Part shown: one piece after another, positions 18,766 to 38,468 of the stretch | Layout: the number at the start of each line of letters is the position of its first letter | Position numbering within the stretch: the stretch's first letter is position 1 | Assembly (NCBI GenBank): GCA_022800815.1 | Contig: JAAWRC010000017.1 | Span: forward strand, 1-64,000 | Origin: Lachnospiraceae bacterium | GTDB lineage: Bacteria; Bacillota; Clostridia; Lachnospirales; Lachnospiraceae | DNA: 64,000 bases | Direction: 5' to 3' | The notes under the pieces: model-generated | The model's input: the letters and a program-made list of their open reading frames with translations, nothing else | What the model was told of the DNA's origin: nothing | The model's database searches: none | Translations under genes and position numbers: made by a program

Positions 18766-18797
18766 AACACTACCAGCCCTGTACTATCCTATATTCA

Positions 18798-19958: not shown

Positions 19959-21094
19959 AGCGCCATTTCCTCCTTTAGCACTGAAACAACCCGATCCAGT
20001 TCCTCTTCGGTCAATCCGGCGCTGCATGGCAGATTTAAAATCCTGTCATGGTAGAAGACAGCCTTTTCAATCCGATATGAAAGCTCATCTCTATAAGGTT
20101 TTAACGTGTGAATCAGTTTCCATACGGGCCTTGCCTGTATTTCATTCTCTGCCAACAGCCTCATCGTCTCATCTCTGTCCTCCGCCATATATGAATAAAA
20201 CCAATAATTTGGTCTGGTATCCCTCCTGAACGGCAAAAGCTCAATATCCCGCTCAACATATCTGCGGTAATTATTTTCTTTTTGCAAAATGAATTCTTCC
20301 AGTTGTTCAAGCTGCGCCAGGCCTAATGCCGCTTGTAAATTTGTCATTCGGTAATTGTATCCAATTTCATCGTGATCAAAATATAGCAAATCAGATTTTG
20401 CCTGCGTCGATAAATGGCGGCACTCATTGGCAATCCGCTCATTACCCGTAACAATCATTCCCCCGCCGCCCGTGGTAATGATCTTATTTCCGTTAAACGA
20501 AAAAACACCAACATCTCCAATGGTTCCGGCATATCTGCCCGCATATTTCCCGCTCGTATAATATGTGCCAAGCGCTTCTGTTGCATCCTCAATAACCCTG
20601 ATCCCATATCTTTTTGCAACGTCCATGACAGACTCCATATCAGCCATGTTTCCAAATACATGTACTACTACAACTGCCCTTACCGATTTGCCTGTCTTAG
20701 TATGAATCAATCGTCCATCGGTAAAATGACACTCTTTTGCGCAAAACTCCTCCAGCTTATATGGGTCAATCGTCAAACTGTCATCGCAATCCATAAAAAC
20801 CGGTGTTGCATTGACATATTTAACAGGGTTTACCGCCGCTACAAAAGTCAGTGTAGGTACCAGAACAATATCATTTTTACCGATTCCCTGACTGAGCAGT
20901 GCCAGGTGTATTCCAGCCGTTCCACTCTGACAGGCGACTGCGTAATCCGCTTTTACATATTTTGATAATTGATCCTCAAAATTACCAATCGCCTTCCCCG
21001 CAGTCGAAACCCATTCCTCCTGTATGGCCTGTGTAACATATGCGATTTCATTTCCTCTGAAACAGGGAACCGATAAAGGAATATGCCGATTCAT
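19955..21094 (-). CDS. legC: LegC-like DegT/DnrJ/EryC1/StrS aminotransferase
   Basis: QEEWVSTAGKAIGNFEDQLSKYVKADYAVACQSGTAGIHLAL; GVFSFNGNKIITTGGGGMIV; adjacent to dehydratase and NeuB/NeuA genes. Confidence 0.85.
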   Translation of the reverse strand: MNRHIPLSVPCFRGNEIAYVTQAIQEEWVSTAGKAIGNFEDQLSKYVKADYAVACQSGTAGIHLALLSQGIGKNDIVLVPTLTFVAAVNPVKYVNATPVFMDCDDSLTIDPYKLEEFCAKECHFTDGRLIHTKTGKSVRAVVVVHVFGNMADMESVMDVAKRYGIRVIEDATEALGTYYTSGKYAGRYAGTIGDVGVFSFNGNKIITTGGGGMIVTGNERIANECRHLSTQAKSDLLYFDHDEIGYNYRMTNLQAALGLAQLEQLEEFILQKENNYRRYVERDIELLPFRRDTRPNYWFYSYMAEDRDETMRLLAENEIQARPVWKLIHTLKPYRDELSYRIEKAVFYHDRILNLPCSAGLTEEELDRVVSVLKEEMAL

Positions 21095-21133
21095 AAAAGT
21101 CCCTCCCATCGTTTGCTGCATGAACGCACGTAT

Positions 21134-22369
21134 TCACATCTTTTCATCAAGATTTTTTTCTGTTTCCAGGTGGGAAAATTCAGGCAAATATTTATGAATC
21201 ATTTCTATGATGTCCCCCTTATTCTTTTCATCCTGATTTAAAGCGTCCTCTAATCTCTTTATAAATGCCGTCACGTCATCTCTGTTCGGAATATTTCCCG
21301 GTCTGATAATTCCGACCGCATCATACTTTTTCATCTCGGTCAGCTCGTCTGAAGTGTAAAATTCTTCAAATTTCTTTTCTCCCGACGTGTCGGATTTTTC
21401 AAAAAGTACCGGGTATTCCCTGCTTCCCCGCTTTAATGCAGCCATTCTGCTGACAGCCTCCATATTTGATTTGCATTCAACCGGCTCATATCCTAAAACC
21501 CTCAAAAAATTCCTGGCAATATTATCAAAAGACTCCATCTGGCTTACTTGCAGTTCAGGGAAAAATATTGATCTACTTTCTCCCATGATCGCCGCCAGCA
21601 AACATATTTGCCCGCTCTCCACGGGACTGACAAAATATCTCTTAATGTCCGTGGGTGCGCTTATGGGCTGTAATTTAGAAATTCTGTGCATAAATCCATC
21701 CAACAGTGATCCATTCGAAAACGCCACATTGGCAAATCTCGCTGTCTTGACCGGAAATAATTCAGAATAACTAAATATTAAATCCTCCATGATTCTTTTC
21801 GAAACGCCCATGACATTAACCGGATTTACCGCCTTGTCCGTACTTACACAAAAAAAACTTTCCGGCGGATAAGTTGCCAGCAAATCCAGCAGGCCCATCG
21901 CATTGATCACATTGTTTCGCAGCATTGCCTCTATGCTGTATATATCTTTTTCACTTCTCACATGCTTATGGGCGGAAAAATTGCAGACGATGTCAAATCC
22001 CGCAATGCTTTTCCCTGTGTTTCTGTGTCCCATAAACATATGCCTGAACGGACGGCTGTTATAGTCCATTGGATAAGTGCGGTAAGTGTCAGGCATATAA
22101 ATCCCGCTGCACCTGAGATCTCTGGTCAGTTCCGTCAGGGCATTTTCATTGGTGTCTACAATTATGACCTCGCCCGGCTCAAATGGGAGCATTTCTTTTA
22201 TAAAAGAGCTTCCAATGCTTCCCGCCCCGCCTATGACAAGCACACTTTTTCCATGTATTTTTTCATACAGTTTTTTTTGATTGTCATCAATATCCTTCTG
22301 AAACATGCTGCCGGAACGTCTTATGACATATTCCGATATAAAATCATTAAGATCAAACATCAAATTCAT
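21134..22369 (-). CDS. legB: LegB-like nucleotide-sugar 4,6-dehydratase (CapD/FlaA1-related)
   Basis: SVLVIGGAGSIGSSFIKEML; NFSAHKHVRSEKD; FCVSTDKAVNPVNVMGVSKRIME. Confidence 0.83.
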   Translation of the reverse strand: MNLMFDLNDFISEYVIRRSGSMFQKDIDDNQKKLYEKIHGKSVLVIGGAGSIGSSFIKEMLPFEPGEVIIVDTNENALTELTRDLRCSGIYMPDTYRTYPMDYNSRPFRHMFMGHRNTGKSIAGFDIVCNFSAHKHVRSEKDIYSIEAMLRNNVINAMGLLDLLATYPPESFFCVSTDKAVNPVNVMGVSKRIMEDLIFSYSELFPVKTARFANVAFSNGSLLDGFMHRISKLQPISAPTDIKRYFVSPVESGQICLLAAIMGESRSIFFPELQVSQMESFDNIARNFLRVLGYEPVECKSNMEAVSRMAALKRGSREYPVLFEKSDTSGEKKFEEFYTSDELTEMKKYDAVGIIRPGNIPNRDDVTAFIKRLEDALNQDEKNKGDIIEMIHKYLPEFSHLETEKNLDEKM

Positions 22370-23189
22370 AGTTATTTAAATCTGGCACCGTTAAATTCCA
22401 CCAGAATCCTCCCGGTTTCTTCTTTATTTTTACCCTTCCTTCAAGATAAGCTTCATAATATTGAACAAATCGCTCATCATATTTGGATAATAATCTGTAA
22501 TGGCTCCGCTTCACCTCGATTTCTTTTCTCAGATTACAGTCTGTTTGAACGGAGACGCCTGCAAAATTATTGTCATGTATGCGATATCGTGTAAAAGCTG
22601 CCCGTCCCGTATGAATTCCCCTTAATCCCATAATCAACAGTCTCGAATACAGGTACCAGTCAAACACAAAGGTATCACAATCAAACAATGATGAAATGAA
22701 CTTCTCGTCAACGCTGCCAAGCCTCAAAGCGGTGTTTGACAGGCCAAGGAAATTAGAATTTGCAAGTATTTCAATGCCATTTGCCGAATCAGGCATTTGA
22801 AAGGCAGTGCTTTCACAGCCGTCCGGCAAAATGTCATTGTAAAAAAAATCAGCACCCGTAGTTCTAAAACAGTCCACCGTCTCCTGGATTCGCCCTTCTG
22901 AAAACGTATCATCCGCATCGCCAAAAACCAACAAATCCGCTCCCGACTCTTTGGATTCCTGTATCAGTTTGACCCTCAGGGCCTGCGGTGTAAGCTGCGA
23001 AAAATTCTCGATTACGTCAGCACGGACATCCAAAAAAGCGAGTTTCTTAAATATTTCCTGTTTCTTTACCTGATCGGTCAATATAAGAACAGAAAAATCA
23101 CGAAACGTCTGCGCTTGCAGACTCTGGATAAAATCTTCAAAATATTTTATGGCATCCGGGTATACCACCGTGACAACTACCGTTTTCAA
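22353..23189 (-). CDS. Family-2 glycosyltransferase
   Basis: VVTVVYPDAIKYFEDFIQSLQAQTFRDFSVLILTD; ADLLVFGDADDTF. TTG start with AGGAG inside the upstream NeuA-like ORF. Confidence 0.75.
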   Translation of the reverse strand: MKTVVVTVVYPDAIKYFEDFIQSLQAQTFRDFSVLILTDQVKKQEIFKKLAFLDVRADVIENFSQLTPQALRVKLIQESKESGADLLVFGDADDTFSEGRIQETVDCFRTTGADFFYNDILPDGCESTAFQMPDSANGIEILANSNFLGLSNTALRLGSVDEKFISSLFDCDTFVFDWYLYSRLLIMGLRGIHTGRAAFTRYRIHDNNFAGVSVQTDCNLRKEIEVKRSHYRLLSKYDERFVQYYEAYLEGRVKIKKKPGGFWWNLTVPDLNNYEFDV

Positions 23190-23880
23190 TATTCACTTTA
23201 CTCCTAATATATTCCGCATAGCAAAAATCATCATAAGTGTCAATATCAACAGAGTCGCTTTCACGCATAACGTAAGCCACTGTTTTATCTGTATAATACG
23301 TTCTCTCTTTCACCAGAATATCGAAATCAAGAATATATATGGCCCCATTGGGTATGCAATAACCGCCGTCATCCTGCCTGTTTCTTAATACGCCTGATTC
23401 CATTCCGAATCCACAGCTATGCAGATACCCGTTTTCACCAACCTTAAGATACCAGCTCGGTGGAACATCCGCCCGCCTGACTGAAATGAGCGTTTCGCAA
23501 TCGGATTGAGAAAACAACTCAAAGGCCTCGTCAATATGCCTGCTGTTCCTAAAAGGAACCGTCGGAAGAAGCACCATGAACTTCTTAAGATCGGCCCCAT
23601 CACGTTCAACCAGAAAATTAACTGCATGAATATAAACATCTACTGCCGACGCTGTATCTGTAGCTAATGCTTCCGGTCTTAAAAACGGTACCTCCGCACC
23701 ATACTGTTCAGCAATTCCGGCTATGCCGCGATCATCCGTAGTGACTATGACTCGATCCACACAGCTTGCACCAATTGCAGCCTTTATGGTATGTGCAATC
23801 AAAGGGATCCCGTCTAACTCCTTCACATTTTTTCCCGGGAGGCCTTTGGAGCCTCCCCGAGCGGGTATAATGGCTATCAT
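23137..23880 (-). CDS. CMP-nonulosonic acid (CMP-sialic/legionaminic) synthetase
   Basis: MIAIIPARGGSKGLPGKNVKELDGIPLIAHTI; VTTDDRGIAGIAEQYGAEVPFLRP; VDIDTYDDF. ATG at 23880. Confidence 0.92.
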   Translation of the reverse strand: MIAIIPARGGSKGLPGKNVKELDGIPLIAHTIKAAIGASCVDRVIVTTDDRGIAGIAEQYGAEVPFLRPEALATDTASAVDVYIHAVNFLVERDGADLKKFMVLLPTVPFRNSRHIDEAFELFSQSDCETLISVRRADVPPSWYLKVGENGYLHSCGFGMESGVLRNRQDDGGYCIPNGAIYILDFDILVKERTYYTDKTVAYVMRESDSVDIDTYDDFCYAEYIRSKVNIENGSCHGGIPGCHKIF

Positions 23881-23885
23881 ACTGT

Positions 23886-24923
23886 TCAAAAGTCCTCCCA
23901 TGATATGATCTCATCATACGCAATGTCCCTTTTTGCCGTACGCCCGACTACTGATTTATAGTATTTTGGCGCAATCCCCGTTCCCGGCCGTTTATAATCA
24001 ATCGCATCCTCGCTGATCACCATCCCTTTCTCGATCTGTCTGGCCGCTACGATACTTCTCTGGAACGCTTCCCTTCTCTCCCTGTCCTCATTGACGGTTT
24101 TGACACGGGAACCAAGCATCAAATGACCAATTTTTGCCGCTTCACAGATTACGGAAAGTTCCTCAGGGCTGGCTGATATTTTATGATCCCATCCCTCCAT
24201 CGCTTTATCCAACGTAAAATGCTTCTCAATGACACAAACCCCCTTAGCCAACGACATTACAGGAGCGACCGTCCCGATCGTGTGATCAGAATACCCAACC
24301 CTAACGTCAAAGCAAGTTCGCAGCATATCAATATTGTTCAAGTTGACTTCGTCATTGCGGGGCGGATAGATGGATACACAGTGTAACAAGATGATATCCG
24401 TACAGTGATTTGACTGTAAAGTTTCCACCGCAAGAGCCACGTCGCTAAGCGGACATAGTCCGGTGCTGAGAATTACCGGCTTTCCTTTTGTTGCGATATA
24501 CTCCAAAAACGGTATATTGTTAAGATCCATGGAGGCAACTTTTATAAACGGAACATCGAGTTCAATCAGCAAGTCAACCTCGTCCCTGGAAAAAGGAGTG
24601 GAGGCAAATTCAATCCCCTTCTCCTCACAATAGTTTTTCAGTTCGATATGTTTCTTTTTATCTATATGGTATTTATCAACGATCTGCTCCAATGTATAAT
24701 CCGTTCTGTTCCTATAGTCATCTCTCAAAAAAAAGTTATCTTGATAAACCTTTTTGGAGAAAATGGAATCCTTCGTCCATGATTGGAATTTTACACAATC
24801 AGCGCCACACGCAACTGCGGAATCAATCAGACGCTTTGCAAGCTCCATATCACCGTTATGATTTGCACCCGCTTCGGCGATAACATAGGTTTTTCCGTGC
24901 TCGCTCATATCCTTGAATTTCAT
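23886..24923 (-). CDS. NeuB/LegI-like nonulosonic acid synthase with C-terminal SAF domain
   Basis: VIAEAGANHNGDMELAKRLID; CVKFQSW; GYSDHTIG; VIEKHFTLDKAMEGWDHKIS; SIVAARQIEKGMVISEDAI. Confidence 0.93.
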   Translation of the reverse strand: MKFKDMSEHGKTYVIAEAGANHNGDMELAKRLIDSAVACGADCVKFQSWTKDSIFSKKVYQDNFFLRDDYRNRTDYTLEQIVDKYHIDKKKHIELKNYCEEKGIEFASTPFSRDEVDLLIELDVPFIKVASMDLNNIPFLEYIATKGKPVILSTGLCPLSDVALAVETLQSNHCTDIILLHCVSIYPPRNDEVNLNNIDMLRTCFDVRVGYSDHTIGTVAPVMSLAKGVCVIEKHFTLDKAMEGWDHKISASPEELSVICEAAKIGHLMLGSRVKTVNEDRERREAFQRSIVAARQIEKGMVISEDAIDYKRPGTGIAPKYYKSVVGRTAKRDIAYDEIISWEDF

Positions 24924-24960
24924 AAAGATGCACCTCCGTTTTTAAATTTCTTTTGCGGTT

Positions 24961-26070
24961 TCAAAAAGTATGCTCAAAAAAACTTTTGCTTAATCTCTTC
25001 TCCATATCCTCCATCGTATCAAGCTGTCCCATATCCAGCCAGGCATTCTCGCTGACAGGAAAAGCCCCCACCTTAAATCCCGAGTCCTTGCATCTTTTAA
25101 TAATCTCCGGGAATCCTATTTTTTCGTTATCGTTCACTTTTGATAGAGCCTCTTTCTCCACAATATAGCAGCCTGTATTTGTCAAATATGCAATCTCAGG
25201 CTTTTCTATCATGGAAATAACGCTCCCTCCATCTCCTGTTTGGATTACACCATACGGTATGGTGATTTTTTTTAGTGAAGAAATAATTGTTATCTTATTT
25301 TTTTCATTTTTATGATAATCAAGCATTTTAGCGAAATCATCCCGGATAAGAATGTCACAGTTCGATAAAATAAAGGTGGAACAAAGCCGGTTTCGCAATA
25401 AGGAAAGCCCGCCTCCCGTTCCTAATTCTTCCGTTTCATCAATGATCTCTAAATCATAGTCATGATTCAAATCCGCAAAATACGCTCTTATCATATTTTT
25501 TTTATAATTTACAATCACATAAAACGTGCGGGCGCCGAAGTTCTGAAACTGATGTATGATATGTTCTATGATCGGATACTCACAGATCGGTATCAACGGC
25601 TTGGGCAGTACCTTTGTATACGGATAAAGTCTTGAACCCCTCCCGCCCGCCATGATAACGATTGGTATAAAAGCAAGGGAATCATTTCTCTTTTTGTCAG
25701 AATTGCTAACCGCCCTGTTAAAGATCACTTTTATGATTCTGCGACTTTCATCAACAATGGGGATGGCCCTGAGGTTTTTTGAAACCATAAAGCCGATTGC
25801 TTCCTCCTCGCATTCCTCCGTCAGATATTCAGGGCTTCTATTAATAATATTGGAAATTTTCCCGCTCAGTTCACCTGTTTTTATAAGCCACCTTCTTATA
25901 TCGCCATCCGTTAAGCACCCCTCTAACTCCCTGTTTTCGTTTTGTATGAAGAGTATCCCGTTTCCCGTAATGTCAATCTTCTTCATGGCATCGGGGATGC
26001 TCATATCTGCATTCCCGACAATATTATTAAATTCTGCTTCATCCGATAAAATCGCAAACATAACATCCAC
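24961..26070 (-). CDS. Sugar-phosphate nucleotidyltransferase with N-terminal CBS pair (PtmE-like)
   Basis: FIPIVIMAGGRGSRLYPYTKVLPKPLIPICEYPIIEHII; N-terminal CBS-like repeats with LTDGDIRRWL. Confidence 0.88.
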   Translation of the reverse strand: MDVMFAILSDEAEFNNIVGNADMSIPDAMKKIDITGNGILFIQNENRELEGCLTDGDIRRWLIKTGELSGKISNIINRSPEYLTEECEEEAIGFMVSKNLRAIPIVDESRRIIKVIFNRAVSNSDKKRNDSLAFIPIVIMAGGRGSRLYPYTKVLPKPLIPICEYPIIEHIIHQFQNFGARTFYVIVNYKKNMIRAYFADLNHDYDLEIIDETEELGTGGGLSLLRNRLCSTFILSNCDILIRDDFAKMLDYHKNEKNKITIISSLKKITIPYGVIQTGDGGSVISMIEKPEIAYLTNTGCYIVEKEALSKVNDNEKIGFPEIIKRCKDSGFKVGAFPVSENAWLDMGQLDTMEDMEKRLSKSFFEHTF

Positions 26071-26103
26071 ATTATCATCCTAACCTGTCTATGCGTTTTA
26101 AAT

Positions 26104-28017
26104 TTACAACTTTCGAGCCATTTCCATATTCCTATAAAAAATATCCGGTTTCCATTCATCAAGCTCCTGAAAAATCCGATCCATTTTACCAATGATCTCT
26201 TCGTGTTTTTCTTTTGTCCAATTCTCAATATATCGGTCATACATCCATGTCCCGACTTCTTTCCCGACCTTCTTTAATTCTAAACGATCCATTCCTATAG
26301 GATTATTGTCAAAAAATATGTCTTTTCCTGTATATAAGCAACTTCTGTAATATAAGAATTCTACGCAAAAACACTTATATACGTCTTTTTGGCAGTTTTT
26401 AGGGCTTAAATCCTTCAAGTGAAAAAGCAAGTCATCATATTCGTCCATCGTCCTTGGATTCCATGCATGATTAAAGGCCATGCCTGGATTTGCCCCTGCA
26501 TTGATGACTTCTATCCCAATTAGCGGATATTCATACGAAATTGTTCCATAAACCGTCAATGCATAATTTAATCCTTCCTCTTTCATTTGGATTGGAGAAA
26601 CCATTGCGTCAATTTTCGTTATATTCGGATATCTTTTTAGATAATTCTCAATTATAATAAAATCTCTTTTTGACGCAGACGGATGCATTTTTAGATACCA
26701 ATCATAATCTGGTGTTTTTAGCGAAATTTCACCTATGTGGATTAACCACGAAATACGATTGTTATCAAAAATCTGTTCGCCACAAAAATAGCAATCCTCT
26801 TCAAAAATTGAAGGACAAATAAGCACTTTTATCTTATTATTGTCTTTTAATATTCTTTCGCTGCTTTTTATAGCAAAAACATTCCTGTCTTTTCCGTGCG
26901 TTGCTATGTATTCCCCTCCACCAAACAACCTTTCGTTCAGCTTCTCCTCAGCCCACTTTAAACCATAAATCTGTTCCTGTTCAGAAAGCTCATTCCAAAA
27001 TTTTTTGAAATATGGATAACTTTGGCAGACACAAAAATCCAAGGTCATCCTTGCAAAATAGTCGGTATCCGTATATGTCGGTATATGAAAGGAGACCGCA
27101 ATGTCCCTTATGAATCCATCCCAACACACTCCGTCCCCAAGTAAAACGGCTTTTACCTTTCCATTCTTTAAATAATCATACCAGAAGACAACATACTCTA
27201 TGGTTTCTATTAAAAAAGCTTTCAAAGATTCATCGTTTGCTTCAAATGGCGGCACAAAATGCCTTAACAAAAACCTGATTATGGTGGTTCCGAAGTGGAT
27301 ATCGTAAATTTTTATTTTGTCCCAATCCTGCCACGTGCGCAAATTACACCATATTGATGAAAACAACCGGTCAACTTCCTGCTTCTGCGTTTGTGAGAGC
27401 TCGTATCTTATGAGTTCATCCATGTTAAATGAGTTAAATATTTTCAACATCGTTTTGGACGCATTTCCATATGTTGCGCCAAACCTGAAATAGCCTTTTA
27501 TTTTTGCATTATACTTTTTTGCAAAATAGTTGCCGCAGTACGCCTGCGGTATTATCCTGATCAATGCATGTTTGTTATCAAAGGGAATAAGAATTTCGTT
27601 TTGTGTTTCTGCTTCATTGTCTACTCCAGCAAACCCATACCCGGACCATAACTTTTTGTTAAAGTCAATAAATCTTTTTATGGAATCATCTTCAATAAAA
27701 ATATGTCTGTCATCCCAAACGAAAAAATCAATCCCAATACTTAGGCCAATTTTGTTAAACGCATCAATAATATCATTGGCATATCTGTATGTCGCAATTA
27801 CGACAGGCCATTTTCTGACGGAGGCCGCATAATCATCTATACTAATTATAGGCTTATCATAAATCCGATTGCCGCATCTGCGATTATCTATAAAGGCTAT
27901 GATTTTATCCATATCAGAAATTGCATGAATCAGATCCTCCGCATCTATACCCGTCCCGTAAACATAAAACTCTCCAGCATTTTTCAGAAACTCCCTGTCT
28001 ATATATCCTTGTTCCAT
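26104..28017 (-). CDS. Glycan-biosynthesis protein with N-terminal Rossmann-like module; possible GT-B/capsule-type transferase domain
   Basis: FYVYGTGIDAEDLIHAI...FIDNRRCGN; KVLICPSIFEEDCYFCGEQIF; PDYDWYLKMHPSASKRD; LTVYGTISYEYPLIGIEVINAGANPG. Confidence 0.6.
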   Translation of the reverse strand: MEQGYIDREFLKNAGEFYVYGTGIDAEDLIHAISDMDKIIAFIDNRRCGNRIYDKPIISIDDYAASVRKWPVVIATYRYANDIIDAFNKIGLSIGIDFFVWDDRHIFIEDDSIKRFIDFNKKLWSGYGFAGVDNEAETQNEILIPFDNKHALIRIIPQAYCGNYFAKKYNAKIKGYFRFGATYGNASKTMLKIFNSFNMDELIRYELSQTQKQEVDRLFSSIWCNLRTWQDWDKIKIYDIHFGTTIIRFLLRHFVPPFEANDESLKAFLIETIEYVVFWYDYLKNGKVKAVLLGDGVCWDGFIRDIAVSFHIPTYTDTDYFARMTLDFCVCQSYPYFKKFWNELSEQEQIYGLKWAEEKLNERLFGGGEYIATHGKDRNVFAIKSSERILKDNNKIKVLICPSIFEEDCYFCGEQIFDNNRISWLIHIGEISLKTPDYDWYLKMHPSASKRDFIIIENYLKRYPNITKIDAMVSPIQMKEEGLNYALTVYGTISYEYPLIGIEVINAGANPGMAFNHAWNPRTMDEYDDLLFHLKDLSPKNCQKDVYKCFCVEFLYYRSCLYTGKDIFFDNNPIGMDRLELKKVGKEVGTWMYDRYIENWTKEKHEEIIGKMDRIFQELDEWKPDIFYRNMEMARKL

Positions 28018-28145
28018 ATATCGGTCCTCCCAATGTCATGTCTTCCATCTCCTGAAAGCTCTGTTGCTCCAGCATAGAAACTAACATTCCATTCGCCGTT
28101 TCCATCGTATGAACCAAATCTAACAGCCGTCTTTTATCTTCCGTG

Positions 28146-29357
28146 TCACTCCTGCCCTAATCTTTCAATCAGATCAACAACCCTCTTACTTGCACAGCCA
28201 TCCTCTATAATTCCGGTTCTTTTTATAAACCATTCCGCTTTTTCTCTATATACATCCTGATCAAATGTTAAAATGTTTTTTTCCAGTTCATCGTTTGTGC
28301 TCGCAACCGGAAAAGGAATTTCTTCCAATTCAAACATTAAATGTCCTCTGTCCACAATGTATTCCCGCAAATCATCCGCATAAATGAAACCTGGAACGTG
28401 CGTCAAAAAGCTTTCAAAAATAACAGTGGAATAATCCGTCAGGCATGCATCGCTTGCTGCGATAATCTCACTCACATCCGGCCTCTGGCTTACATCAATC
28501 AGTCTCCGATTGTTCTCACGTACTGGAAAGCGCTCCATCTGTGCCGCAAGCTGGGGATGCAAACGTAAAAATACATACCATTCCCCACCAAACCGTTTTT
28601 CCAGTGCGGTAATCAATCTTTCAAAATCAACAGAACAAAACTCCGCTTTTACGCTTCTGTTTTTAGTTTGACTCCCGCCTCGAAAAGTGGGGGCATACAA
28701 CAAAATCTTTGCATCAAGGGGAATATGACACTCCTTGCGAAACTGTACATGCATCTCCTCAATTTCATGAAATAAAGCATCGCATCGAGGTGTTCCTGTT
28801 TCCAATATCGTTCCCTTATATATCAGTCCTTCCGGCCACATATCGGTACACCATCTGCTGCCGGATAAAGCATAATCCATCATTTTAGAATCATACTCGC
28901 TGACCAGATAAGCCATCTGAGGCAACTGCTTTCCCCTATATTTACCAATCGGCTTTAACGCCAGAGTACCATGCCAAGTCTGCAGGTATACCGTTCCCTT
29001 TCTTTTTTTTGTTCCATAAACTGTTCTTGTATTCGCAATCCAGAATCTTGCCGTAGATAAATGATATGCTCTTGTCCATAATGAGCTTTTTACCTTCTGA
29101 ATTTCTTTTGGAAACTTCTTTTCCATATCGTCCACGAGCCAGATAATCTTATATGCGGTTTGGCCCTGTTGATTCCTTCTCAGCAGTTCTTTTGCAATAT
29201 ACTTTGGACTACATCCATATCCGCCCTTCCCCTCAAACGTCCACATCACTATTTTATATGGATCGATCGGAAAAACCCAACACGCATAATATGCCAGACT
29301 TGAAAGAAAAGCCTTCAATTTTCGCCAGAAGATATATTGTTTTTCCGCAAAATTCAT
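28146..29357 (-). CDS. CDP-glycerol glycerophosphotransferase family protein (TagB/TagF-like)
   Basis: YLQTWHGTLALKPIGKY; LYAPTFRGGSQ; FLRLHPQLA; DVSEIIAASDACLTDYSTVIFES. Confidence 0.93.
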   Translation of the reverse strand: MNFAEKQYIFWRKLKAFLSSLAYYACWVFPIDPYKIVMWTFEGKGGYGCSPKYIAKELLRRNQQGQTAYKIIWLVDDMEKKFPKEIQKVKSSLWTRAYHLSTARFWIANTRTVYGTKKRKGTVYLQTWHGTLALKPIGKYRGKQLPQMAYLVSEYDSKMMDYALSGSRWCTDMWPEGLIYKGTILETGTPRCDALFHEIEEMHVQFRKECHIPLDAKILLYAPTFRGGSQTKNRSVKAEFCSVDFERLITALEKRFGGEWYVFLRLHPQLAAQMERFPVRENNRRLIDVSQRPDVSEIIAASDACLTDYSTVIFESFLTHVPGFIYADDLREYIVDRGHLMFELEEIPFPVASTNDELEKNILTFDQDVYREKAEWFIKRTGIIEDGCASKRVVDLIERLGQE

Positions 29358-29375
29358 GCTTCCAGCCTCATCTCT

Positions 29376-30416
29376 TTATATTTCAAGCAAATTCAGAAAT
29401 CGTTCCAGACTATAAACCAAAAATTTCTGTTCTCCTGTCAATCCTTCTATGCAGCCTGGCCGAAATTCGTTTCTCACCGGTCCCTTCCAGTCCTTCATCC
29501 AGTCATCCGCCGGTCTGGACATCGGAAGTTTTTCAGGCACTTCTAAATCCGGATATTTCATTCGAAACAAATCTCGAATCAAATATTTGCTTTCTCCATT
29601 CCGCACTCTTTTTAAATCTAGGGGTTCTGCCATTTTGAGTCTTTCATAGGGATCAAATGGCTGTATCCCGGCAAATTTGCAAGCATTCGAAAGCGCACCT
29701 GATGCCGATGTGGTATATACCTCTTTGATGAATGCAATAAAATCAATCTTTTCATCGCCTATACGATATAAATCATATACTGACGACATATTTACCGGGT
29801 TCTTTAATACTTTTTCAGGAGCTACAAAGCTAAACCGCTCTACCCACTCGTCATAGTCCCAGTCCCGGGACAGAAGGCGATCCATTCCTCCAAATTCCGT
29901 GTCGGCACAATCTCCATAGACAATCCATTTTGCTCCATTCTCTCTTGCCTGCTTTGCCATTTTATACGCCTGCGGTTCATTCGGTATCGTAGGCGAGCCA
30001 TCATTGCGCATCAGCGCATCCATTGAATCTAAGTAATCCTCCCACCCAACCTCAACAATTACATGTTCAAGATGGTTAATCTCGCAAATCTGACGGGCGG
30101 CCTCTGTCTCGTCCACCGCATTTTTTCCAATACACTTTGCTGTATACGCTTTCGTTCCGGCCGGCATATAGGAAGCCAGTATTGCCGAATCCATCCCGCC
30201 ACTTAAAAATAATGCCGCATGGGACAAATCAAGTTGCGCTAACTGCTTTTTAATATTCAGGTCAATGTCCTCCGCTGTTTTGCATGGCGTTTTTTCCGTA
30301 CCTTTAATTAAGTCATGATCTTGATGCCGTACTCTTTCTTTAAAACAAATATCCTTATTATATACATAACGAAATGTTAAATACGAGCTCATACAGTATT
30401 CTTTATCAACTTTCAT
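29376..30416 (-). CDS. Asparagine synthase-related protein (synthetase domain, no glutaminase domain)
   Basis: ALFLSGGMDSAILAS PP-loop; YGDCADTEFGGMDRLL; N-terminus too short for a class II glutaminase and no Cys2. Confidence 0.82.
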   Translation of the reverse strand: MKVDKEYCMSSYLTFRYVYNKDICFKERVRHQDHDLIKGTEKTPCKTAEDIDLNIKKQLAQLDLSHAALFLSGGMDSAILASYMPAGTKAYTAKCIGKNAVDETEAARQICEINHLEHVIVEVGWEDYLDSMDALMRNDGSPTIPNEPQAYKMAKQARENGAKWIVYGDCADTEFGGMDRLLSRDWDYDEWVERFSFVAPEKVLKNPVNMSSVYDLYRIGDEKIDFIAFIKEVYTTSASGALSNACKFAGIQPFDPYERLKMAEPLDLKRVRNGESKYLIRDLFRMKYPDLEVPEKLPMSRPADDWMKDWKGPVRNEFRPGCIEGLTGEQKFLVYSLERFLNLLEI

Positions 30417-30475
30417 TTCCCTTTCACCTCACCCGTGTTCTCAGGATATAATTCTAAAACAAAAGCGTTGTCTCT

Positions 30476-30892
30476 CTAACAAATCTCTTTTCTTATTTTT
30501 GAAGATGATATTCCATCTGTGTATGGAAAATAAATCACATCAACACCTTCTTGACGAAGCTTTTTTTCATACTCCTTATAACATTCCTTTTTTGCGGCAT
30601 CACTTCCTTTAAACAGCACGTCAAAGCGATACCGCATCCAAGCTTCGTATTTATCTATATTTTCTTCACATACAACGCAATCCACATAACGAATACTTTC
30701 TACAATTTCAATTCTCTGTTTATATAAGATAACAGGAAGGTTTCCTTTTAACTCTAATGTAAGTTTATCACTGCATACCCCCACAATCAGATACTCACAT
30801 TGTTCTTTTGCTTTTCTCAAAATGTTCAGATGGCCTGTATGAAACAAATCAAATACGCCTGATGTATAACCAACTTTATATTTCTTCTCCAT
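30476..30892 (-). CDS. tagD: Glycerol-3-phosphate cytidylyltransferase-like (TagD)
   Basis: VGYTSGVFDLFHTGHLNILRKAKEQCEYLIVGV; ISSSKIRKEI. ATG at 30892. Confidence 0.9.
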   Translation of the reverse strand: MEKKYKVGYTSGVFDLFHTGHLNILRKAKEQCEYLIVGVCSDKLTLELKGNLPVILYKQRIEIVESIRYVDCVVCEENIDKYEAWMRYRFDVLFKGSDAAKKECYKEYEKKLRQEGVDVIYFPYTDGISSSKIRKEIC

Positions 30893-33446
30893 TTCTCCCT
30901 CTTTTGATAATAGCCTCATAAACCTTTTGCCCACAATTGCCCTCAGGCGAAGCATTCCAATCGGCACACACTTCCAAGCACCTGTCCCTTTCAAAGCTTT
31001 CTCCGATTATCCTGTCATTTGCTATTGCCAACATCGAATTCCAGACATCCTCAAAACAGATATAGCTTCCCCCGCTGTCATTAACCATAAAGCCTGTTTT
31101 ACTCTTAGATATTACTTCTTCCATGTCAAAATTTATTGGAACTTCTGTCATTTTCCCTGTATCAGGGTCGAAATCATACACCCTCCTTGTGGGAAAATAA
31201 TTGAATCGCATCTTATTTTGATTCTTGTCATTAAAACAAAAATTACCCATGGCCCAGTTAGGCATATAGGGACTAACATCGTTCGTTTCGGTTTTTATAG
31301 GCGGCTTCCACTCTGAAACCACTTTTGTATCCCGGTCCAGAAGTACAAACTTGTTCGCCAACATCGGTGGAAAAATACACTTTCCATCCGTCCGCCGTAC
31401 AGGTCCGGCAAAAAATAACCGGTTACATGCGTCGTGTTTATTTCTGTCAATGGACTCAAGCCCGTCAATATGCAAGTTATAATGCGTATAGGAATCATCT
31501 ACAATATTCCATACGGTTATGGCAGTTCCCTTATATGGAATAAACCACATTTCATCAGCATCCATCTTCTGGCAGGAAATCGAAGAACAAAAATACCCAA
31601 CTTCGATTGGCCTTCTTTCTATTTCAAGAGTTTCCTGATCTATAAACATGATTTCCTTTCCATCCGGCCTGATAATAATGAATTTTCCTTTCCAGATGGT
31701 GAAACCCGAAGGTACACTTATATTTTCATTCTCCTCGCCACTCGTCTCATACATATAGTACTTGCCAATGCCATCGACATAATCAACTTTCTCGCTGACC
31801 AAATCTACCTTGACAAAGGAATCATACTTGCCAGGCATCAAATACAGACAGTCATTTCTCACATAGCCCGCAACAAACATCTGCTCGCCGCTTTGGCATT
31901 TCTTTTTTAGATTGATGCGCCGTATGTCTTTCGTGTCCGTATCTATTATCAGAACATTCTCCGTTCTTATCGGAGTGCATATAATCTTTTCCTTCCATGC
32001 GATTACCGAGTTATACATATTCGGTTCACCGGGCAGTTCACAAAACCACCGATAATCGTATTGTCCGGTTACATCCTTATAGATCTGCCTTCCCTGTGTC
32101 AGACAATATGCGTTTAACGCTTTTTCAGATGTCAATACCTTGAAGACTTCCCCACGCCAGTCATTCTCATCAGGTGCAACACTTAATCTGTTATTCAATA
32201 TAAAGACCGGTTTTCCGGAAACCTCAAAAAGTGAAACCACGCTCGTCCCGGCATCCCCGATATACGCATCGCTGAACGCAATACTCGCCTCGATATCCGG
32301 CGTGTCATCGTAAATTCCGATATTTTCCTCCTTGAAATACCTGACTAAGACATCATATTCATCCAGATAATCTCGTCGCATGGATTCAAAGGTAGACCGG
32401 AGCAGCGGATGAGGTCTCCAGAGAATGCAGGCATCATCAACTTCCTTAAACGTGTCGAACACGTACTTAAGTTTCGTCAGGAAGTTCTCTGTGTTCTCCA
32501 GCATCCCGGCAATGGACGTGTTATAGAAATAAACCCGCTTCCCCTCCATTTTCTCTTTCCATTCCGTAGATGCTTCCGGCGGATCTTGACAAAGCCGGAG
32601 TACCCGGTCAAACTTTGGCGAACCAAGAGGAAGGAACTTACTCCTGGGTATCTGCAGGTCAAACTGATCAATGATCGCCTTTGACTGCACCACGATATAG
32701 TCCGCATAGATATATGAAGGACACAGGCTCTGCCCCTCGCTCATCTTTCCGCATGTAGCATAGTACGGGACATACACCAGGCAGTCCGTCAATGTCTTAA
32801 GTCTCTTCGAGTAGTAGTCCGGATGGACCGATGTCACGTAGTTGTATTCATCATAGGGATTATGGATGAAGATCATATCCGGATGATGCTCTTCCAGATT
32901 AAACCCCGCATAATTCACGATCGGTACATAGTCTGGATAATCCTCCGCCTCGTAATGGAATTTTGAAAAAGTTCCGTCAGAATTCCTGTCAAAATATGGT
33001 ATAGGAATCACATACGCCTGACAGTTTGAATCCGCATCTGCCGCCATCCAGATGGACTCCAGGGAATCCCACATGGATGCCTTGTACGGTAGGAACACCG
33101 CCTCGTACTGAGTCGGAATGTTGTGTCTGAGTTCATTCTCTGCGGCGATAATCCTCCTGTCGAGCCTCTTTCTTAACTGTCTGGCGCTCGGCCTCCCGGT
33201 CAGGATGTCCTCATGGAACTGGTAGACCTCCTCGCAGTATTCCTCCAGGATATGAACTGCCTCGGTTCCCTCCCCCTCCAGCCTGTCAACGAACGTCCCC
33301 ACCTGAATGGCTCCCTGTTGACAATCCTCCAGCAGCCGAGCGGCTTCGGCAAGCCGCTTCTTCTCTATACACTTTATCACCTGCTCATGAGCTTCCTCTA
33401 TTGATGACAGGACGTCCATGCACTGTGTTTTATAATATTTCCTCAT
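30876..33446 (-). CDS. TagB/F-like GT-B transferase fused to a C-terminal beta-propeller-like repeat region, with N-terminal helical module
   Basis: LLGSPKF-like FLPLGSPKFDRVL; ILWRPHPLLRST; SDAYIGDAGTSVVSLFEVSGKPVFIL; then six or so ~45-aa repeats of the form W(K)...ii...v..iDl.t..v. Start could also be 33470. Confidence 0.75.
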   Translation of the reverse strand: MRKYYKTQCMDVLSSIEEAHEQVIKCIEKKRLAEAARLLEDCQQGAIQVGTFVDRLEGEGTEAVHILEEYCEEVYQFHEDILTGRPSARQLRKRLDRRIIAAENELRHNIPTQYEAVFLPYKASMWDSLESIWMAADADSNCQAYVIPIPYFDRNSDGTFSKFHYEAEDYPDYVPIVNYAGFNLEEHHPDMIFIHNPYDEYNYVTSVHPDYYSKRLKTLTDCLVYVPYYATCGKMSEGQSLCPSYIYADYIVVQSKAIIDQFDLQIPRSKFLPLGSPKFDRVLRLCQDPPEASTEWKEKMEGKRVYFYNTSIAGMLENTENFLTKLKYVFDTFKEVDDACILWRPHPLLRSTFESMRRDYLDEYDVLVRYFKEENIGIYDDTPDIEASIAFSDAYIGDAGTSVVSLFEVSGKPVFILNNRLSVAPDENDWRGEVFKVLTSEKALNAYCLTQGRQIYKDVTGQYDYRWFCELPGEPNMYNSVIAWKEKIICTPIRTENVLIIDTDTKDIRRINLKKKCQSGEQMFVAGYVRNDCLYLMPGKYDSFVKVDLVSEKVDYVDGIGKYYMYETSGEENENISVPSGFTIWKGKFIIIRPDGKEIMFIDQETLEIERRPIEVGYFCSSISCQKMDADEMWFIPYKGTAITVWNIVDDSYTHYNLHIDGLESIDRNKHDACNRLFFAGPVRRTDGKCIFPPMLANKFVLLDRDTKVVSEWKPPIKTETNDVSPYMPNWAMGNFCFNDKNQNKMRFNYFPTRRVYDFDPDTGKMTEVPINFDMEEVISKSKTGFMVNDSGGSYICFEDVWNSMLAIANDRIIGESFERDRCLEVCADWNASPEGNCGQKVYEAIIKRGRNGEEI

Positions 33447-33447
33447 A

Positions 33448-34179
33448 CTACAGATAAACCTCCGGCTCATTTAAGAACACGTCCGTGATTCCTTTCTTTT
33501 CAAGTTCTTTCAATCCCAATCTGCCGCCCGTAGGCTTCTCCGGGTAGAGATGTCCGCCAAGCCAGGCTCTTACCGTATAGTCTTTTATCTTCCCGGCCGA
33601 CACGTCTATGCCCCGCCAGAATGGGTGAATCGCATTTGCCCCACAGCCGCCCTTCAACTTATAAAGACAGTCGGATGCCTTCCCGTCAAGGATCCCAATC
33701 TCAGCATCAGGCAAGAGATTCCTCAGCTTCTCCAATGATGAGGCGGAAAAGCTTGACCAGACAACTTGTTTCTGAAGACTGCGTTCTCTCACCAGCTCTG
33801 TGATCTTCCCTTCCATTCCCTCATAGGGATAGATACTGTTTTTCAGTTCAATGTTCAGAAGCAGCCCTGCCCTTAATTTATTCTCCAATAAATCCAGAAC
33901 CTCATCGATTGTAGGAATATGCTCCGGCTCTTCCTTCCCCGTATGGATGTGGAAAGTCTTTAACTCCTCCAGCGTATAATCCCTGACAAACCCGCAACCA
34001 TCTGTCGTGCGGTCAATCCGCTCGTCATGAATGACGACCATCTTGCTGTCCCTCGTAAGTTGTATGTCCAGTTCTATACCGCAGAGTCCCTTCTCATAGA
34101 GCTTTGCCGCCCTGGAAAACGCAGTCAGCGTGTTCTCCGGATATCGCTGCGAGCACCCTCTGTGCGCCCATATCTTCAT
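33448..34179 (-). CDS. Glycerophosphodiester phosphodiesterase
   Basis: MKIWAHRGCSQRYPENTLTAF; GIELDIQLTRDSKMVVIHDERIDRTTDG; LLNIELKN. Confidence 0.94.
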   Translation of the reverse strand: MKIWAHRGCSQRYPENTLTAFSRAAKLYEKGLCGIELDIQLTRDSKMVVIHDERIDRTTDGCGFVRDYTLEELKTFHIHTGKEEPEHIPTIDEVLDLLENKLRAGLLLNIELKNSIYPYEGMEGKITELVRERSLQKQVVWSSFSASSLEKLRNLLPDAEIGILDGKASDCLYKLKGGCGANAIHPFWRGIDVSAGKIKDYTVRAWLGGHLYPEKPTGGRLGLKELEKKGITDVFLNEPEVYL

Positions 34180-34234
34180 TTAGCCCTCACCCGCTTGTCT
34201 CCATAGCCAGTTATTCATGACCAATTTCAATTTC

Positions 34235-35194
34235 TTACCGACTGCGCCTGTCCCGAAGGAACCGTTCCATCAAACCCGCCATAATAATCGAACGGTCACC
34301 GGATGCCGCAAACGTCCTGTCATCTTTTCTTTTTATCCAGTCCGTAAATTCCCTGATCTCGTACCGCAGCCCGTCTCCCTCAAACGGAAAATCATAAGTG
34401 ACCATCCTTCTGGGATCCTCAAAATGGACCTCTATATGCGAGGTTTTCCACCACGGGGCCCTTACCAGAATATAACCCTTCGTACCGCTGACCATCATCC
34501 TTCCTTCCGCTTTGACTCCCAGCCCGCACAATGTGGAAGCGAAGTAATTCCGATAAGCCACATCTGTTTTCACAAAGATGTCGAGATCGTTTGCACCCCA
34601 TATCTCTGAAAATCTGACAGTCTCATAATCTCCGCCAAAGAGATCCAGGATCGGAAGAAGCACATAACTACCGAGCTCCGTAAAACTTCCGCCATATGCC
34701 GTATCGGTGAATTCTCTTTTCCCCTTATCCTCCAGCTTGGTAAAACAGCTTTCTATGTATCTAATATCTCCAATGATTCCGCTGCCGGCTATTTCAAGGA
34801 GTTTCCGGTATCCCGGACAGTAAGCCGTCTTAATGCCCTCCATCAGGACAAGGTCCTTCTCCGCCGCAGCCCCGAAGCACTCCTCTGCCTGTAGGCGGCT
34901 CAGCACCATCGGCTTCTCACATAGGACATGCTTCTCGTGGACAAGACACTCCATGATATAGCCATAATGGGTCTCATGGGGAGCTGCGATATAAACTGCA
35001 TCCACCGCATCCATAAACTCTTCCAAATCCATAGTTGCTGAAACCTGAAGCCCTTTGCACCTCTCCCCGGCAAAACGCTCCGCACTACCCACGTGCGGGT
35101 TATATACGGCCGTAATCTCAATATTTCCTGCAGCTAATGCCTCCGGCACGAACCTGCCCGCAATCCGCCCGGTTCCGATAATCCCAATCTTCAT
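34235..35194 (-). CDS. Gfo/Idh/MocA-family oxidoreductase
   Basis: KIGIIGTGRIAGRFVPEAL; YIAAPHETHYGYIMECLVHEKHVLCEKPM. Confidence 0.92.
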   Translation of the reverse strand: MKIGIIGTGRIAGRFVPEALAAGNIEITAVYNPHVGSAERFAGERCKGLQVSATMDLEEFMDAVDAVYIAAPHETHYGYIMECLVHEKHVLCEKPMVLSRLQAEECFGAAAEKDLVLMEGIKTAYCPGYRKLLEIAGSGIIGDIRYIESCFTKLEDKGKREFTDTAYGGSFTELGSYVLLPILDLFGGDYETVRFSEIWGANDLDIFVKTDVAYRNYFASTLCGLGVKAEGRMMVSGTKGYILVRAPWWKTSHIEVHFEDPRRMVTYDFPFEGDGLRYEIREFTDWIKRKDDRTFAASGDRSIIMAGLMERFLRDRRSR

Positions 35195-36588
35195 TGTAAT
35201 GTTTCCTGATATGCCCTGCGCTTTTCCATGAATTTCTCAACTACGCATGCCATGGCAATCGACTCACTTGCTGTCAGTTTATAATCTTTGCCTCCTGTAC
35301 CATTTATCTTCGATACAAATTCTGCGATCTCATACCGGAGACCGTCTTCACCACTGAAAGTGGATTCATAATGATCTATTTTCAAGGGATCCTCATATCT
35401 CACATCAAACTCCTTCGTGAGCCACCAGGGAGACTTTGCCAAGATATAGCCCTGCGTCCCGGATATGACCAGCTGACCTTCGGACTTTACACCCGCCCCG
35501 GACTTTGCCGTCGCAATCCTGTTATCGTAGAAGAAGTTCACCTTCGTATAAACGTCGATCCCGTTCTTGCCGTATACACAGTCAATCCTTAAATCCCGAT
35601 AATCCACGCCGAAAAGCTTGATGATCGGGAGCATGGTATAACTGCCATACTCAAGGAATGCCCCACTGTACTTCGCATCGGACATTTCCCTTGATGCCGG
35701 ATTTCCGATCCTGGTAAAACAGGCTTCAATATCCCGTATCTCACCGATCCCTCCGTTCCTTGCCACGGAAAGGATTTGTGAGAATCCCGGAAGGTATGCC
35801 GTGCGAATGCCCTCCATCAGTGTTACTCCATTTTTCTTTGCCAGTTCATACAGCTCCACAGCCTCCGCACAGGTAAAAGTCATAGGTTTCTCACACAAGA
35901 CATGCTTTCCCGCCATCAGAGCCTTACGCACATAATCACTGTGGGTCTCGTTCGGCGAGGCCACATAGATGGCATCCGTCCCATCAAGGAACTCCCCAAA
36001 CCTGCCCGTCCAGGTCTCAACCTGGTATTGGCTTTCAAACGCTTTCGCACTCTCAACCTCCGGGTTATAGGCACATACCACCTCAATTCCAGACACGAAG
36101 CTCGTCTCCTTAAAAAATCTCGGCACGATCCGCCCTGTCCCCACGATGCCGATCCGGACAATCTCCTGCCGTTTGTTCCTTATAGCTGTCGAGGATATCC
36201 CTGCGGTTCTCGGAAGGTAGACAACACCGCAGTACTGTCTCAGATAATCAAATTTCCCCTCCCAGTCGCTTCCAAGCGTAAATACGTCAATATCGTATCT
36301 CTGGATATCCTCAATCTTCTGTCCTTCATGGTCTTCTACGATAACCTTATCAGCAAAGCCTGTCTTTAAAACATTGTCGATTCTCGTCATAATCGGATCG
36401 ACAATATTCAATTTTCCCCTCATCAGGTCATAGTGCTCTGTCGTTACACCGACCGTCAAATGATCTCCCAGCGCTTTTGCCCTCTTAAGCAGTTGGTAAT
36501 GCCCCTCATGAAACAAATCAAAGGAGCCATAAGTAATAACCTTTCTCAACTCTCGCTCCAAACCAAGGCCCCAAAAACCAGTACTCAT
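35191..36588 (-). CDS. Fusion: TagD-type cytidylyltransferase plus Gfo/Idh/MocA oxidoreductase
   Basis: KVITYGSFDLFHEGHYQLLKRAKALGDHLTVGV...TAGISSTAIRNK, then IVRIGIVGTGRIVPRFF...AGKHVLCEKPMTF. TTG at 36549 with upstream GGAG is an alternative start. Confidence 0.9.
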   Translation of the reverse strand: MSTGFWGLGLERELRKVITYGSFDLFHEGHYQLLKRAKALGDHLTVGVTTEHYDLMRGKLNIVDPIMTRIDNVLKTGFADKVIVEDHEGQKIEDIQRYDIDVFTLGSDWEGKFDYLRQYCGVVYLPRTAGISSTAIRNKRQEIVRIGIVGTGRIVPRFFKETSFVSGIEVVCAYNPEVESAKAFESQYQVETWTGRFGEFLDGTDAIYVASPNETHSDYVRKALMAGKHVLCEKPMTFTCAEAVELYELAKKNGVTLMEGIRTAYLPGFSQILSVARNGGIGEIRDIEACFTRIGNPASREMSDAKYSGAFLEYGSYTMLPIIKLFGVDYRDLRIDCVYGKNGIDVYTKVNFFYDNRIATAKSGAGVKSEGQLVISGTQGYILAKSPWWLTKEFDVRYEDPLKIDHYESTFSGEDGLRYEIAEFVSKINGTGGKDYKLTASESIAMACVVEKFMEKRRAYQETLQ

Positions 36589-36968
36589 TGATTTTAGTGG
36601 CCTTCAAATTTTTCCAGCTTTTCCTTTTCCACATTGCAGTTCTTCATGCTTGGTTTTTATAAATAAGGCATATTGGTCATCTTCCCGTCCAAAATACAGA
36701 CGGATGGATGATGCGAAAATACTTTCGCTTCGCTCCCCGCTACGTCACGAAACAGATTCTGATTTTCCGTGTTCACGAGGTCCTGGCATATCCAATGCGC
36801 AGAAGTCCTGGTCTTTCCATTCGTTCTGCCTTCTAATGCCGTATCGTTTTTTATAGGGCAGATGTCACTGCATCTGTCCGATCATGGCCGCATCCTTCCG
36901 TCCCTTCGGTAAAATCACCGGCAGAAACACCGCAATTTATCAGAAAGACCGTCCTTATGACTCTATTT

Positions 36969-38285
36969 TTATTGTAAGGGAGTTTCCACTCCTCCCCGTT
37001 CCCTGGCGTTACGGGCAGTATTCATCTTTTCTTCCGCCTCATAGCCGCAAACCGGACAGAAAAAACGTCCCTCTTTCTTGATCCCACTGGCACCGCATCG
37101 GCTGCATTCACCGCTGATTCCCTTTCCAAATACCTGCACCAGTTCCACCGACTGTTCCTCACACTTCTGTTCCAGTCGTTTCCGTATATATCCCCTCTGC
37201 CACATGGAGGGGGATTGATTGATTCTCCGGTTCTTTCCACCGCTTCCTACACCGGGAAGCTTCGCCATATAGACGGTTTCGGGCTTCTCCGTCCGAAGGA
37301 AACGATTCAATTCCTGATTGACATAGCCGTGCAGCCGTTCCTGAAACCTGCGTTTCTTTGCATGAAATTTTTTCCGTCCCGGATTGTTCTCCCGGTTCCT
37401 GTTATAAATTCCCGTCTGCATGCGCATCCAGTCCGCATATTCTCTCTGAAGATTCCCGAGCTCTTCTCCATACCGGTTGCCGCCTTCTGTCGTCAGCATC
37501 GTATGGAACCCCAGTGCGATCCCGACCCGTCCGGTATAATCCGGATGGCTTCTGACAGCCACGTCCACGGGAACCCTGAACACAACCTTGTTTGTCTCCG
37601 GAAACAGTTTGATATAAAGCTGCCGTTCGTACCGATTATTGTCCGTCAATGGAATAAAAATACGCCTACGTTTTTCTTTTGTGGTAATGTAGATGCCATG
37701 ATCCCCATAGCGGTAGGTACGTTCGCTAAGCGCAAACCCTTCCTCCAAGTCCGTATGCTGTTTTATGTGATGTTTCCGCACCTGGCGGCAGAGATAACTT
37801 TGCAGATGCTCTGTGTCCACCTGCACCTCCATCTCGTCAAATGCTTGCCGGTATTCCTCCGGAAGCGATGGGATCGGCTCTCGGTTCAACACGGCCTCAA
37901 AGATCTTTCCGTTTTTCATAAGAAACCGCAGGTAATGTTTTTCCGTATCAGAAAAGCCCTCGTTTTTTCCGACACATTCCAAAACCTTCGTCTTGGTCCT
38001 GCTCCACTGGCTCTTTATATCTCCCAGCGCATCGAACACCGCCAGATAAAAATAAGCAGAGGGCATCCCAAGCCGTTCCCTGAGTCCGCTTTTTGTCATC
38101 TCATTCTGAATTGTATAGCCCGGATAAAGCTTTGGCAGACTACCAATCCCTCCAAAACGATCATACACATAATTTTTTACCGTCCGGTAGTCTTCTGCGA
38201 TTTCCTGCAGCTTTTGCATGTCTTCTGCCGAAAGCGGAACTTTGCTGTACTGATGTACCGTCTTACAGATTTTATCGGCCGGCAT
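36969..38285 (-). CDS. TnpB/IS605 OrfB-family protein, predicted nuclease-dead
   Basis: RuvC-I region GRVGIALGFHTMLTTEGG, RuvC-II region PETVYMAKLPGVG, Zn-ribbon CSRCG...CPVCGY, RuvC-III region EAEEKMNTARNA; canonical D/E/D positions occupied by A/A/K. Confidence 0.82.
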   Translation of the reverse strand: MPADKICKTVHQYSKVPLSAEDMQKLQEIAEDYRTVKNYVYDRFGGIGSLPKLYPGYTIQNEMTKSGLRERLGMPSAYFYLAVFDALGDIKSQWSRTKTKVLECVGKNEGFSDTEKHYLRFLMKNGKIFEAVLNREPIPSLPEEYRQAFDEMEVQVDTEHLQSYLCRQVRKHHIKQHTDLEEGFALSERTYRYGDHGIYITTKEKRRRIFIPLTDNNRYERQLYIKLFPETNKVVFRVPVDVAVRSHPDYTGRVGIALGFHTMLTTEGGNRYGEELGNLQREYADWMRMQTGIYNRNRENNPGRKKFHAKKRRFQERLHGYVNQELNRFLRTEKPETVYMAKLPGVGSGGKNRRINQSPSMWQRGYIRKRLEQKCEEQSVELVQVFGKGISGECSRCGASGIKKEGRFFCPVCGYEAEEKMNTARNARERGGVETPLQ

Positions 38286-38310: not shown

Positions 38311-38334
38311 TTTCAAAAAGTACACTTTTTGCAA
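38311..38334. repeat. 24-bp palindrome (11-bp arms, AC core, one arm mismatch): TTTCAAAAAGT-AC-ACTTTTTGCAA
   Basis: Read directly; 26 bp upstream of the TnpB-like start codon. Confidence 0.9.
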
Positions 38335-38444
38335 AAACAGTTGTAAACAAAAAAATTATTTATTTTATTATTTTATATAAAATATCGTCGGAATTTCTCC
38401 AAACTTTAATTTTTTCTTGTGAACCATTACGCACTGATCATTTT

Positions 38445-38468
38445 TTGCAAAAAGTGTACTTTTTGCAA
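38445..38468. repeat. 24-bp perfect palindrome (11-bp arms, GT core): TTGCAAAAAGT-GT-ACTTTTTGCAA
   Basis: Read directly; 30 bp beyond the recombinase stop; core inverted relative to the 38311-38334 copy. Confidence 0.92.

Follow-up and report, generated by a model that had tools for sequence, protein, structure and literature searches.

The csrA-linked TldRs of Oscillibacter and Flavonifractor lie behind hin and an inversion of about 120 bp carrying a FliA promoter, and their guide RNAs (gRNAs) direct binding to alternative flagellin genes (PMC13418256). This arrangement is the closest precedent for the locus described here, and the pairing of a dead TnpB with an invertase is already reported for flagellin. 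The present analysis concerns a nuclease-dead TnpB-family protein encoded in positions 1 to 64,000 of contig JAAWRC010000017.1 (Lachnospiraceae bacterium, assembly GCA_022800815.1), a stretch of 64,000 nucleotides hereafter called the window. The gene stands between a small promoter inverton and a surface-polysaccharide operon, is followed by a conserved structured RNA, and belongs to a family whose members have lost the nuclease active site; it is proposed that the protein probably helps to choose which surface coat a cell makes. The link to polysaccharide operons, the inverton class with a tyrosine recombinase and the RNA family all appear to be new, since none of them, nor the second dead family described below, was found in a literature search that left the founding TldR papers outside its range. 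The features of the locus are the following:

36969..38285, minus strand: nuclease-dead TnpB-family protein of 438 aa, with A257, A341 and K420 at RuvC I, II and III
36660..36961, minus strand: conserved structured RNA, an omega-RNA-like candidate, starting 8 nt past the dead-TnpB stop codon, with its covariance-model core at 36660-36848
38311..38337, no strand: proximal inverted repeat, 96% complementary to the distal repeat
38338..38441, no strand: invertible segment of 104 bp between the repeats, aligning with the segment of relative L018 in opposite orientation
38382..38408, minus strand: sigma-28/sigma-D-like promoter, TAAA-N15-GACGATAT, facing the dead TnpB
38442..38468, no strand: distal inverted repeat, a palindromic serine-recombinase-type crossover site, TTGCAAAAAGT-GT-ACTTTTTGCAA
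38498..39094, minus strand: serine recombinase of 198 aa, a putative invertase (Pfam Resolvase 3e-29; PHROG DNA invertase 2.5e-52)
1443..36588, minus strand: surface-polysaccharide biosynthesis cluster (cytidylyltransferase/GFO_IDH, GDPD, Glyphos_transf, NeuB and others)

The open reading frame (ORF) of the dead TnpB starts with ATG and has no internal stop. Its product matched the Pfam model Cas12f1-like_TNB above the cut-off (2.7e-8) and the NCBIfam model guided_TnpB at 3.1e-13, which is under that model's cut-off. The AlphaFold2 model (predicted local distance difference test, pLDDT, 83.4) retrieved AsCas12f (8j12, E 2e-13) as the top PDB match in Foldseek, with ISDra2 TnpB (8h1j) in the top ten (E 1.6e-11, template-modelling score 0.63 by target length); the predicted structure is that of a full-length TnpB/Cas12f-fold protein with the TNB Zn-ribbon, the fold of the TnpB nucleases. 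The catalytic positions were set by alignment to canonical TnpBs of the same order (L011-L013, with motifs GIDLG / IEDL / DRDxNAx) and to L109, a full-length relative whose site is intact (GIDKG / VMENL / SDTNASKN). They fall on A257 (codon 37515-37517), A341 (37263-37265) and K420 (37026-37028), so that the RuvC D-E-D active site is missing; residue 342, commonly Asp in TnpB, is Lys, and the Zn-ribbon cysteines are all kept. An earlier sequence-only reading of the window had claimed the substitution of all three RuvC acids in an intact 438-aa frame with a complete CxxC...CxxC ribbon, and the alignment recovered the same residues and codons, the cysteines and a frame free of stops.

The window protein has numerous relatives in the same state. 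Three dead-TnpB loci, which are paralogues, were found in its own genome, and a search of this genome, of related genomes and of a public collection yielded 21 full-length sequences, of which the 20 besides the window protein share about 50-62% identity with it; ten further members (44-65% identical, one cut short) came from 299 genomes of the same family. The public-collection relatives sit on contigs labelled Lachnospiraceae, Clostridia or related names. Across the 31 near full-length members, acids were found at RuvC I, II and III in 0/31, 0/31 and 0/30 cases, respectively, the last count being 30 because one truncated member ends before motif III. No acid lies within three residues of RuvC I or II in any of the 31 members, which leaves no sign of a displaced site around these two motifs; at RuvC III, columns -2 and -1 are often acidic. 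The ratio of nonsynonymous to synonymous substitution rates (dN/dS) was 0.08-0.15 in six pairs of members, which, together with the full-length frames, indicates that the family evolves under purifying selection. The sequence-only reading had argued against random decay, a view that these comparisons uphold, and had considered a rearranged active site unlikely; the case that would have overturned it, a lone decayed copy among intact homologues, was checked, and the relatives proved likewise dead at all three positions. A lone pseudogene is thus ruled out by the loss of the acids in every member covered and by the low dN/dS. That reading had also suggested an exapted protein, possibly a regulator. 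The exaptation is well supported, because the homologues are also dead, their frames are full length and dN/dS is low, whereas the regulatory role is suggested by the context of the locus.

No full-length member was found in phage and plasmid collections, where the matches listed were only partial (24-30% identity). The nearest intact relative found, L109 (G574:C9), belongs to another family of the class; it is about 28-30% identical to most members (E about 1e-62), and the tree placed it among the dead members on a very long branch, a placement that the program flagged as unsure. This intact TnpB lies at G574:C9:41500-54500 in an insertion that splits a response-regulator gene and resembles an IStron (group I intron plus TnpB), the intron being unconfirmed by Rfam at the gathering threshold.

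The inverton, its likely partner recombinase, the RNA and the polysaccharide operon had no part in the sequence-only reading. Serine-recombinase crossover sites are palindromes around a two-base centre, and each 27-bp repeat in the window is itself palindromic around such a centre (AC and GT); the repeat core occurs twice in the whole genome, both times at this inverton. The sigma-28/sigma-D pattern had its sole match in the 64-kb window inside the segment, with 0.09 matches expected, a figure that is post hoc because the pattern was written after inspection of the window and related segments. Since this promoter faces the dead TnpB, the assembly is read as the ON orientation. Relatives of the serine recombinase occupy the same place in L018, L022, L008 and L009. 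An assignment of the recombinase as an IS607 transposase was judged unlikely, considering its 25.8 bits against a cut-off of 110 and the invertase-type sites alongside.

Among the 30 loci with enough upstream sequence, 25 showed a segment flanked by inverted repeats of one of two motif types, with best repeat scores of at least 15, while 60 random windows of equal length peaked at 13. The serine-type repeats (AAAAAGT-GT-ACTTTTT-like) have spacers near 100-120 bp. The sigma-28-like element was also found in L018, where it faces away, and in L021, where it faces both ways, with near-matches in other serine-type segments. In agreement with the opposite alignment of the window and L018 segments, the 120-bp segment of L021 is present in both orientations on one contig, which is supportive and short of proof because that contig contains an N-joined palindrome. 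The tyrosine-type repeats (TTCGCAGATT-N-AATCTGYGAA-like) bound either a long form of about 1.4 kb, which encloses a tyrosine recombinase in 10/11 cases, or a short form of 190-410 bp without one. In ten tyrosine-type loci the recombinase runs on the plus strand (six) or the minus strand (four) relative to the dead TnpB. A TTGACA-17-TATAAT promoter matching the consensus at 11 or more of its 12 positions was found at the recombinase 5' end of 9/11 tyrosine-type segments and at the opposite end of none of the 11; because it points outward, the minus loci are read as ON and the plus loci as OFF. A 1.4-kb tyrosine-type segment at L030 (G006:C55), from about -1494 to -79 relative to the dead-TnpB start, carries a lipoprotein/phosphate-binding-like ORF and no recombinase. 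Taken from sequence, the attributes of an inverton, namely repeats flanking a promoter, both orientations and a recombinase, are all present, the orientations being drawn from relatives and L021 rather than from the window strain.

In nearly every locus a structured RNA of about 300 nt, a single copy for each gene, follows or overlaps the stop codon of the dead TnpB. RNAalifold, applied to 19 RNA sequences, gave a consensus of 41 pairs, 27 of which are changed on both sides, and in a separate covariation count 93.8% of cells pair, with 0/500 shuffles reaching any of five measures. Sliding the pair partners abolished the signal, a control that is favourable to the structure because the same alignment had yielded it. 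A covariance model built on the 3' 159 positions of the alignment detected 13 RNAs in 12 genomes, matching the 13 dead-TnpB genes there with no orphans; four of these genomes, which lack a dead-TnpB gene, gave no match. The model placed the RNA at 32/33 loci, 19 of them outside its training set. Rfam returned no credible family match. That the RNA is homologous to omega-RNA is likely and short of proof, because the model's best match in the 600-nt stretch downstream of L109 is weak (8.9 bits). At three G006 loci (L030, from 7885, L034 and L035), a 16-nt box, a hairpin and a second box directly follow the RNA, an arrangement that occurs once more at L045 (G006:C26), downstream of a ribosomal-protein S13-like gene. 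The 16-nt tail common to these loci was considered as a shared guide and set aside, since it recurs there in a longer hairpin element.

The polysaccharide cluster extends for about 35 kb downstream of the dead TnpB on the same strand, and the downstream genes of the relatives are related polysaccharide genes, except in L019, L032, L038 and L083-L085, where sequence inspection suggested putative secreted or anchored surface proteins instead; two of these were scanned and gave no Pfam match. In the ORF lists and in Pfam scans of part of the cluster, nothing resembling csrA or a flagellin gene was seen at the locus.

These data suggest that a domesticated, nuclease-dead TnpB and its omega-RNA-like RNA form part of a phase-variation switch. 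The serine invertase would flip the 104-bp promoter segment and, in the ON orientation, one transcript would probably carry the dead TnpB and its RNA together with the polysaccharide enzymes; joint expression with the coat operon is what the locus layout leads one to expect. The complex most likely binds DNA without cutting and would repress transcription of competing surface or motility genes in a TldR-like manner, so that turning one coat on would thereby silence others. The active-site loss, inverted repeats, opposite orientations among relatives, promoters, co-conserved RNA and operon context are read in the sequence; to these we add, by inference, a shared transcript, binding of the RNA, targeting of DNA, repression and the choice of target genes. 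The anatomy of the locus is considered very likely, while the whole mechanism, including trans-repression, is given an even chance. A regulatory role is suggested by the invertible promoter, the conserved RNA and the position at the operon head, and trans-repression by analogy, through the fold, the RNA and the csrA-tldR precedent. In sequence terms the locus shares the attributes of TldRs: a conserved dead RuvC with intact frames, a stable linkage to non-transposon genes and an adjacent structured RNA.

Several observations weigh against this mechanism. No guide target beyond chance was found in the own genome with candidate guides in two registers, a search for which the guide boundary is uncertain, a short seed match is not excluded and the C32 copy was run genome-wide in one register only. 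Additionally, the 40-nt tails past the RNA, compared with the paralogous loci of the same genome, shared at most 12 nt at scattered positions, which was judged to be chance, and 16-mers of the window and C71 tails, searched in the own genome with up to 2 mismatches, gave a single 1-mismatch match in an apparently unrelated region. The conserved TATGCCTTATTT block was rejected as a fixed guide, since below 2 mismatches only the three loci themselves match. The conserved 3' end of the RNA extends through TTATT, and a weak alignment to L109 suggests that the conservation may take in the place of the guide, which would not be expected of a reprogrammable one. Finally, L082/L107 (G316:C30) lacks the inverted repeats as well as the RNA, the only member to do so.

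An action in cis is a possible, if tentative, alternative: the dead TnpB would bind the RNA in the nascent leader and tune elongation or translation of its own polysaccharide transcript, without DNA targeting, in the manner of the UpxY antiterminators that head Bacteroides capsule operons. The empty guide-target searches, the absence of orphan RNAs and the fact that the dead TnpB holds the upxY/upxZ position behind invertible promoters (PMC12118408, PMC12632263) are all in its favor, as is the location of the RNA, which in the examined loci separates the dead TnpB from the operon gene that follows it. However, ordinary TnpB omega-RNAs likewise lie at the gene 3' end, so that this location does not discriminate; moreover, no terminator was identified when the gap was inspected by eye, and csrA-TldRs of similar layout do target DNA. 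A related and rather doubtful explanation is that of a Cas12-family effector stripped of both cutting and programmable guiding, which, bound to its RNA, would regulate in cis the phase-variable surface operon to which it belongs; here the conserved 3' end of the RNA would fill the guide position, and the complex would work on the leader of the operon or else by means of a single, fixed guide. Control of the inversion itself, with the dead TnpB-RNA complex assisting the adjacent recombinase as an accessory factor or setting its directionality, could explain why the protein is usually near invertons, whose recombinases, at one and the same place, are of two unrelated classes. Nevertheless, it is improbable, given that several short-segment loci without an adjacent recombinase retain protein and RNA, that a single family of proteins would need to work with two unrelated recombination chemistries, and that other accessory factors are known for Hin-type invertases. 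A functionless decayed or selfish transposon remnant riding with the polysaccharide locus, to which the TnpB ancestry and one broken family copy (G316:C75) might point, is scarcely credible, being already contradicted by the dN/dS values and opposed by the full-length frames, the covarying RNA and the recurrent inverton association in many genera.

A second, very divergent dead TnpB-like family was noticed at L103 (6586-7797), L104 (4104-5309) and L105 (5621-6826), all in G296, and at L106 (2908-4095) in G169. The TNB domain is present, the RuvC motifs look lost and polysaccharide genes adjoin. The three G296 copies have upstream segments of about 340 bp between TCGCTTA/TAAGCGA-type inverted repeats and a partly conserved non-coding stretch downstream. 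The end of the L106 contig (4575-5594) encodes MQRSLVGSEMCIRDR and resembles sequencing-adapter read-through. In the window, a partial T-box leader match (39224-39300, plus strand; 34.7 bits, under the gathering score and cut at the search end) lies upstream of a tyrosyl-tRNA-synthetase-like ORF at 39653.

Switching through a domesticated TnpB would, on the proposed reading of a phase-variable trans-repressor, carry the domestication of dead TnpBs beyond flagellin control, to the switching of surface polysaccharides in gut Lachnospiraceae, and link the field of invertible-promoter phase variation with that of RNA-guided effectors; the second divergent family, found in similar contexts, suggests a general design. 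Like the csrA-TldRs (PMC13418256), the window locus combines a dead TnpB, a Hin-type invertase just upstream, a FliA-type promoter inversion of about 100-120 bp and an RNA near the gene, a layout found in this family only in the serine-type members. It differs from them in that its operon makes surface polysaccharide, and those of relatives also putative surface proteins, with no csrA or flagellin gene seen; in that many members rely on a tyrosine recombinase enclosed in a 1.4-kb segment whose promoter is of the sigma-70 type; and in that its guide target was not found. The phage-encoded fliC-linked TldRs of Enterobacter (PMC13418256, its reference 5) share the dead RuvC, the adjacent RNA and the linkage to a surface-structure gene, whereas the present family has inverton control, no flagellin gene and no full-length member in the phage and plasmid collections. 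The intact TnpB of L109 shows full-length homology and a downstream sequence that weakly aligns with the family RNA, but it keeps its catalytic residues and lies inside an interrupted response-regulator gene, where no promoter inverton was found. UpxY and UpxZ of Bacteroides capsule loci (PMC12118408, PMC12632263) are, like the dead TnpB, encoded by lead genes behind the invertible promoter of a polysaccharide operon, with several loci per genome; UpxY is a NusG-type antiterminator of another protein family, while the dead TnpB has a TnpB/Cas12f fold with its own RNA. The dead TnpB is a candidate for the factor that coordinates the several switchable surface loci of a clostridial genome, a task that UpxY and UpxZ perform in Bacteroides.
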